Source of the DNA: a bacterium
Lineage (GTDB): Bacteria; JAMCPX01
Direction: 5' to 3'
NCBI GenBank assembly: GCA_021787665.1
Contig: JAJYLN010000003.1
Span: 62,001-126,000, forward strand
Length of the DNA: 64,000 nt
Shown: positions 24,976 to 47,834 of the stretch, one piece after another
Numbering within the stretch: position 1 is the first letter of the stretch
Layout: every line of letters begins with the position of its first letter
Notes under the pieces: model-generated
Told to the model about the DNA's origin: nothing
The model's database searches: none
What the model saw: the letters and a program-made list of their open reading frames with translations, nothing else
Translations under genes and position numbers: made by a program

Positions 24976-25051
24976 GCAACCGTTTTTTATCATGTCGGTG
25001 TTGCAAGGGCCCGCAGTACTGGCCCTACGCCGGCCCGCAATGGCCATGAGG
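24976..25051. repeat. Copy 1 of a dispersed repeat ending in a coding-like WPY-rich tail
   Basis: From GCAACCG to TGAGG this 76-base stretch matches 47610-47679 closely. Read on the plus strand it encodes a tail ...CRCCKGPQYWPYAGPQWP followed by a stop, in an open frame that has no start codon and begins after a TGA. It looks like the 3' end of a gene whose remainder is absent here. Copy 2 carries compensating +1 and -1 shifts in the same tail. Confidence 0.6.
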
Positions 25052-46942: not shown

Positions 46943-47094
46943 ACAGTTTCTGTCTCCTTGAGAGAACCCAACTGTCACCCACTAAAGCATAATTCACCCG
47001 CGCAATGCAACAGAAGTCGGTCCGATTGCATCTGCACCTTGCCCAACCCAAATATGCGACTGAAATTTTCTTGTCCTTACATAAAGGAGGCTCT

Positions 47095-47313
47095 ATGATA
47101 CAGTCAAAGGCTGTGTGGTTGACACCGACGTGGCGTATGTTGTGTACAGTGTTCGGATTAGTTACAGGTCTTTTGTCCTTCCCGAACGCAGTATACGCTG
47201 GCAGGCCAAATCCATGTGAAGTATCTTCATGTTATTCCTGCAATAAACAGAACGGCAATACGTGGACAGTGCCATGGAACAATCAGACTCGGGATAGAGC
47301 CAGACCATCATGA
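47095..47313 (+). CDS. Small secreted cysteine-containing protein
   Basis: The start is the ATG with AAGGAGG eight bases upstream, giving 72 residues. After a basic N-terminus comes a hydrophobic stretch (LCTVFGLVTGLLSFPNAVYA) with an AxA-type cleavage site. The mature part has three cysteines (PCEVSSCYSCNKQ) and TWTVPWNN. No family was recognised. A small lipoprotein-like ORF follows about 100 bases downstream. The strong ribosome site and signal peptide make it a credible gene. Confidence 0.6.
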   Translation: MIQSKAVWLTPTWRMLCTVFGLVTGLLSFPNAVYAGRPNPCEVSSCYSCNKQNGNTWTVPWNNQTRDRARPS

Positions 47314-47410
47314 CCCCGGCAGGCGATGTCGAGGAATCGCAGAGGCCAGGAGCTTGAGAGCATAACGGCAGACCGGTAAACGCAGATGCCCTTACGCTGA
47401 GTAGTTAAAG

Positions 47411-47677
47411 GTGGAGGTTGTATTGGTTTTGTTAATAATTACCGGCTGTGGAGCAACCAAGAAATCTCCACCCGTTATTACCCAAATTAGAGAGTCTTGC
47501 GTGCCCCCACTTGGAGGGGATGTGAAATTGCAGGTATTGATAAATGGTGGGGAAGGATATGCACCTGTATTTGTAAAGAGACACACGGGAAAGAACAGGC
47601 AGTTACCCCGCAACCGAATTGGTCGGTGTTGCAAGGGGCCCGCCGTATTGGCCGTACTCGGGTCCCAATGGCCGTGA
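47411..47677 (+). CDS. Small lipoprotein-like ORF overlapping repeat copy 2
   Basis: A GTG start gives 88 residues beginning MEVVLVLLIITGCGATKKS, a short lipoprotein signal with an ITGC lipobox. The middle (CVPPLGGDVKLQVLINGGEGYAPVFV) resembles nothing recognised. The last 25 codons lie in the dispersed repeat and, compared with copy 1, carry a +1 and a -1 shift, so the WPYAGP tail is scrambled to AVLAVLGS. It may be a decaying gene. No strong Shine-Dalgarno is seen. Confidence 0.4.
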   Translation: MEVVLVLLIITGCGATKKSPPVITQIRESCVPPLGGDVKLQVLINGGEGYAPVFVKRHTGKNRQLPRNRIGRCCKGPAVLAVLGSQWP

Positions 47678-47679
47678 GG
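47610..47679. repeat. Copy 2 of the dispersed WPY-tail repeat
   Basis: Shares GTCGGTGTTGCAAGGG, CCCGC.GTA.TGGCC, and AATGGCC.TGAGG with 24976-25051. Relative to that copy it gained a G in the G-run and lost one base near CGGGTCCC, so both copies end in QWP-stop but the centre is frame-shifted. Confidence 0.6.
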
Positions 47680-47834
47680 AACCTTGATAAAGAGTCATAC
47701 GGGGAAAAATTGTGACAAGCGTCATTGCAAAGTGTACCGCCATGCCGGCATCATGGTATTGTACTCATCAACGGAAAGAGGGCCTCAACCATACTCCAGG
47801 CGAAATGCGGAGACGAGCAAGGCACGTGCACTGC

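Follow-up and report, generated by a model that had tools for sequence, protein, structure and literature searches.

An intriguing question about the DNA analysed here, a 64,000-nucleotide stretch of a bacterial draft genome that we call the window, is why two intergenic places lying far apart share a short run of sequence that ends in what appears to be the end of a protein; namely, whether these are small genes, copies of a repeated element or the remains of genes that have been lost. The two places named in the first-pass annotation are both present and the shared sequence recurs elsewhere in the same genome. In a BLAST search of the whole 2.25 Mb genome (35 contigs), copy 1 and copy 2 match at 85% over 58–59 bases (E = 1.8e-10), and with this genome-wide value the match is beyond chance. 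The core common to both is 24994-25051 in copy 1 and 47622-47679 in copy 2, and the similarity of copy 2 to other relatives begins at about 47612 and runs to 47708, beyond the stop. Further matches of copy 1 in its own genome (G000), including those at C8:115766, C29:384, C10:34092 and C18:10618, make the two copies members of a larger set. The two features, read as the ends of decayed genes on grounds given below, are:

24994..25051, plus strand: copy 1, very probably the decayed 3′ end of a propeller gene (VGVA, 1-base deletion, GPQYWPYAGPQWP, stop), based on 85% to copy 2, matches to intact members and the codon alignment
47612..47679, plus strand: copy 2, very probably the decayed 3′ end of a propeller gene (TELVGVARGPPYWPYSGP, 1-base deletion, QWP, stop), based on the codon alignment and on a 98-base match, at 79%, to the intact C8 gene that continues to 47708

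Reading the further copies in all frames showed that open reading frames at C8, C10, C14 and C17 have the stretch as their 3′ end. The encoded proteins are built of ‘GIAIDASGNVWVTN...TVTELSPTGTTIG’ repeats and close with VTExxGxxxGPQ[YF][FW]PYxGPQ[FW]P, in some cases followed by a short GGGNW-like extension. In intact genes, the repeat is thus the last ~60 bases of an NHL/Vgb-like β-propeller protein, usually a predicted lipoprotein. The suggestion that the two copies descend from a gene family with a tryptophan-, proline- and tyrosine-rich C terminus is therefore borne out: other copies and intact full-length genes with the tail occur in this genome, in its relatives and in many other genomes. 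The family, which the first-pass annotation did not recognise, is recognisable from Pfam as an NHL/Vgb-like β-propeller group.

Of six members tested, all exceed the Pfam cutoff for NHL and four exceed that for Vgb_lyase. The intact parents therefore resemble NHL (PF01436) and Virginiamycin B lyase-like (PF24684) proteins in having the same repeats above curated cutoffs and a seven-bladed model, and differ from these entries and from solved structures in adding a conserved C-terminal tail outside their coverage. They are not identifiable as true streptogramin lyases, as the best member scores 48.5 and 35.7 bits against VgbA/VgbB, far under the NCBIfam cutoff of 600; the window copies keep only the tail. 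Among solved structures, the family profile finds NHL propellers (PknD, Pizza designs and Vgb), and the longest profile matches to natural solved proteins end before the last residues of the tail. An AlphaFold2 model of a 323-amino-acid member (G000:C19), computed from a 19-sequence alignment, has 28 strands with a mean pLDDT of 91.3, which we read as seven four-stranded blades. Confidence drops to 74 and then to 50 over the last 13 residues, and the tail thus extends beyond the last blade. Four propeller genes with near-identical blade repeats of ~123 bases are clustered at G000:C14:66800-81700 (L114), where duplications and internal deletions are likely to arise from these repeats.

To define the reading frame of the family, 52 tails and the two window copies were aligned by codon. 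Relative to the family, each copy carries one 1-base deletion, and in the family frame the copies read:

copy 1: GTC GGT GTT GCA AG- GGC CCG CAG TAC TGG CCC TAC GCC GGC CCG CAA TGG CCA TGA
copy 2: ACC GAA TTG GTC GGT GTT GCA AGG GGC CCG CCG TAT TGG CCG TAC TCG GGT CCC -AA TGG CCG TGA

The tail in its true frame is TVTELVGVAKGPQYWPYxGPQWP followed by the stop. The first-pass annotation correctly gave CRCCKGPQYWPYAGPQWP and a stop, with no start codon, as what copy 1 encodes in the frame chosen there. The first part of copy 1 and most of copy 2 are misread in that frame; the family frame gives VGVA.GPQYWPY there. The CRCC of that frame is VGVA read one frame off, a frameshift artefact exposed by the codon alignment. 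As for the shifts described for copy 2, QWP and the stop are reached after a 1-base shift, inside an 88-amino-acid frame with a GTG start at 47411. When five family proteins were searched against the window segments with tblastn, the tail alone was found, with no propeller blades upstream of copy 1 or copy 2; a propeller protein would have at least one blade. With no remnant of a blade upstream, the parent genes cannot be rebuilt, and their descent is read from about 20 codons. We acknowledge that the draft genome is incomplete (92.7%) and that errors of assembly could in principle account for the single-base deletions; they could not account for the missing blades.

The two copies take their place in a series of increasingly damaged genes. 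Profile searches with the tail alone, on which these counts rest, found 19 places in this genome: 9 in frames of 330–982 amino acids, 4 in frames of 97–172 amino acids, 5 orphans and 1 marginal match. The recovery of four tail-only remnants partly reflects the use of the tail as the query. The orphans, all in frames of at most 56 amino acids, are copy 1, copy 2, C18:10603, C29:385 and C3:16324. An intermediate at C3:16253-16386 has a blade and a tail in different frames. In a genome of the same genus (G001), all 11 tails are in frames of at least 194 amino acids; G003 has 14, one of them in a 77-amino-acid frame, and G002 has marginal matches only.

The features in the surroundings of copy 2 are:

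47018..47832, no strand assigned: block of ~815 bases that holds copy 2 and the 5′ fragment of another secreted protein, delimited by blastn of its flanks against G001:C103
46541-46978, minus strand: gene to the left of the block, which from its reading we take to encode a B12-binding protein
47081..47310, plus strand: 5′ fragment of a different secreted protein (ribosome-binding site, start and signal peptide; 72 amino acids from 47095) with a degenerate (CA)n start cassette
47411..47677, plus strand: 88-amino-acid frame from the open reading frame listing, with a GTG start and a lipobox-like LIITGCG, which enters copy 2 out of the family frame and is probably not a gene

To the right of the block is a plus-strand gene for a LysM/SLT transglycosylase (Pfam). 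At the orthologous place in G001, blastn finds the same two flanking genes separated by a short spacer, and the block is missing. The fragment at 47081-47310 matches G000:C23 at 77% over 135 bases and G001:C112 at 71% over 209 bases, and its intact relative, in G004, has 1124 amino acids and lacks the tail. The start at 47095 and the stop at 47677 are therefore not the two ends of one ancestral gene, as the 5′ part begins a different secreted protein whose intact relative is tail-less. That relative (L110, G004:C32, 2-3376) is itself a secreted protein with a HEYGH motif, metallopeptidase-like by eye, for which Pfam gives an Ig-like domain only; its N terminus is the part related to the fragment.

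Copy 1 lies between a minus-strand BtrH_N/DUF4872 gene and a plus-strand response-regulator gene (Pfam). No copy 1-like match was found beside the orthologues of the BtrH_N gene in relatives. In G001 the sequence upstream of the response regulator is different and broken, and on reading it resembles what are presumably transposase remnants; in G002 and G007 a minus-strand gene lies there, which we take from its reading to be accA.

Conservation of the tail follows the genetic code. When 63 tails are compared in pairs over their last 13 codons, the average identity is 0.92 at first, 0.84 at second and 0.37 at third codon positions, and the tail is thus conserved at the level of the peptide and not of the DNA. 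Read in the family frame, the two window copies have 1 difference at first, 1 at second and 6 at third positions, the pattern expected if they diverged mostly as working genes and broke later.

These patterns bear on what else the shared stretch might be. Several tail-only copies are scattered in one genome and copy 2 lies within a block missing from a relative of the same genus, as might be seen if the 3′ tail were a mobile or recombining DNA element, such as a MITE-like repeat or a cassette end, able to spread on its own, apart from the propeller gene. However, match ends vary from orphan to orphan, whereas copies of a MITE- or REP-like element would have the same borders; conservation follows codons, with third positions only 37% identical; and phage records contain no match. 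We therefore consider such an element very unlikely. An origin from phages was also rejected: phage records gave no match, and viral contigs contain a single weak relative of the propeller part.

The 88-amino-acid frame at 47411-47677 could be taken for a genuine gene for a small lipoprotein, with its end in the tail region, given its open frame, GTG start and lipobox-like LIITGCG; yet its first 67 residues have no homologue in any locus compared, its block is missing in G001 and its tail part is out of the frame of the family, which makes a functional gene highly improbable. The lack of a homologue also removes it as a known lipoprotein. That the shared stretch acts as a structured RNA or regulatory element rather than as a protein end is extremely unlikely: it is GC-rich and could form hairpins, but three copies folded singly have fold energies no better than those of shuffled sequences (z from −0.5 to −0.2), the window copies have no match in Rfam, and third codon positions vary freely. 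Rfam and folding likewise give no support to a terminator.

Copies 1 and 2 are very probably dead 3′ fragments and not genes. Both combine homology to intact genes of the same genome with a broken frame, no start or domain upstream and no conservation of place in relatives, the features of pseudogene remnants. With the homology, the disruption of the frame, the absence from corresponding sites in the relative of the same genus and the peptide-level conservation of the tail demonstrated, they are very probably the surviving 3′ ends of pseudogenes from a multi-copy family of NHL/Vgb-like β-propeller proteins, typically lipoproteins. Intact members have a signal peptide containing a lipobox-like cysteine, frequently further domains, the propeller and the short conserved tail; such proteins would be located at the cell surface, where the tail would extend outwards and be exposed. 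The family has probably expanded and decayed by duplication, internal deletion, frameshift and truncation, and the two remnants would represent the last stage, in which the tail and stop are left, with one single-base deletion each and neither a start nor blades; we infer the order of these events. Like the bacterial pseudogene remnants surveyed in intergenic DNA (PMC522871), they are disabled copies of known genes marked by frameshift and truncation. Nothing essential differs, except that at about 60 bases the window copies are very short and would escape most annotation. Ordinary gene decay thus settles the observation, and a conserved-looking intergenic tail need not be a gene. The propeller family is large and turns over fast.

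The sole part with some novelty is the motif on the intact proteins. GPQ[YF][FW]PYxGPQ[FW]P ends at most 15 residues from the stop in 75 of 76 sampled frames and 18 residues from it in the remaining one, in a sample of loci chosen by the motif that includes a few fragment frames. Searched with one genome per species, the motif occurs in metagenome genomes that their records label Deltaproteobacteria, Nitrospirae, Proteobacteria, Geobacter, Acidimicrobiaceae and Chloroflexi, and the same search found related propellers in further genomes. The motif has no match in Pfam or NCBIfam, and a literature search for the tail peptide gave none. Its position and conservation suggest a putative role in sorting, anchoring or partner binding. 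It is possible, although we hold this only tentatively and think it rather doubtful, that in environmental bacteria propeller proteins bear this motif as a C-terminal signal not yet described, serving for instance in surface display, anchoring or partner binding. As a family-wide feature without an entry in the searched libraries, it lends itself to tests of a role in sorting or anchoring.

The start cassette beside copy 2 belongs to a separate family. Its layout is a leader with a small hairpin, a ribosome-binding site, ATGAAGCAGTCAAAGGCTGTGTG, a (CA)n tract of 5–13 units and a signal peptide. Besides window positions 47081-47310, it occurs in this genome at G000:C23:5308(-), C7:38232, C9:176(-), C2:47141 and C17:47607, and in G001 on C112, C78, C48 and C19 (the set L225-L235). 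The cassette is common to genes for different secreted proteins and is restricted to the genus (2 of 31 genomes, plus one chance-like match). The leader has no match in Rfam, and its reading as a known riboswitch was rejected.

Phase-variable contingency loci carry simple repeats. Some cassette genes are in frame with their start and in others the long open frame is displaced by one step, a mixture expected of such loci, and the (CA)n cassettes therefore look phase-variable. As in such loci, the start codon is followed immediately by a dinucleotide tract whose length varies, with genes in and out of frame; the cassettes differ in being known here from sequence rather than from switching in populations. 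The window cassette, which has lost the tract, is a decayed member of the cassette family, separate from the propeller family. At two contig ends, G000:C2:47141-47305 and G000:C9:1-176, the same cassette and flank occur with 5 and 8 CA units, and these may represent either separate copies or one repeat in two states.
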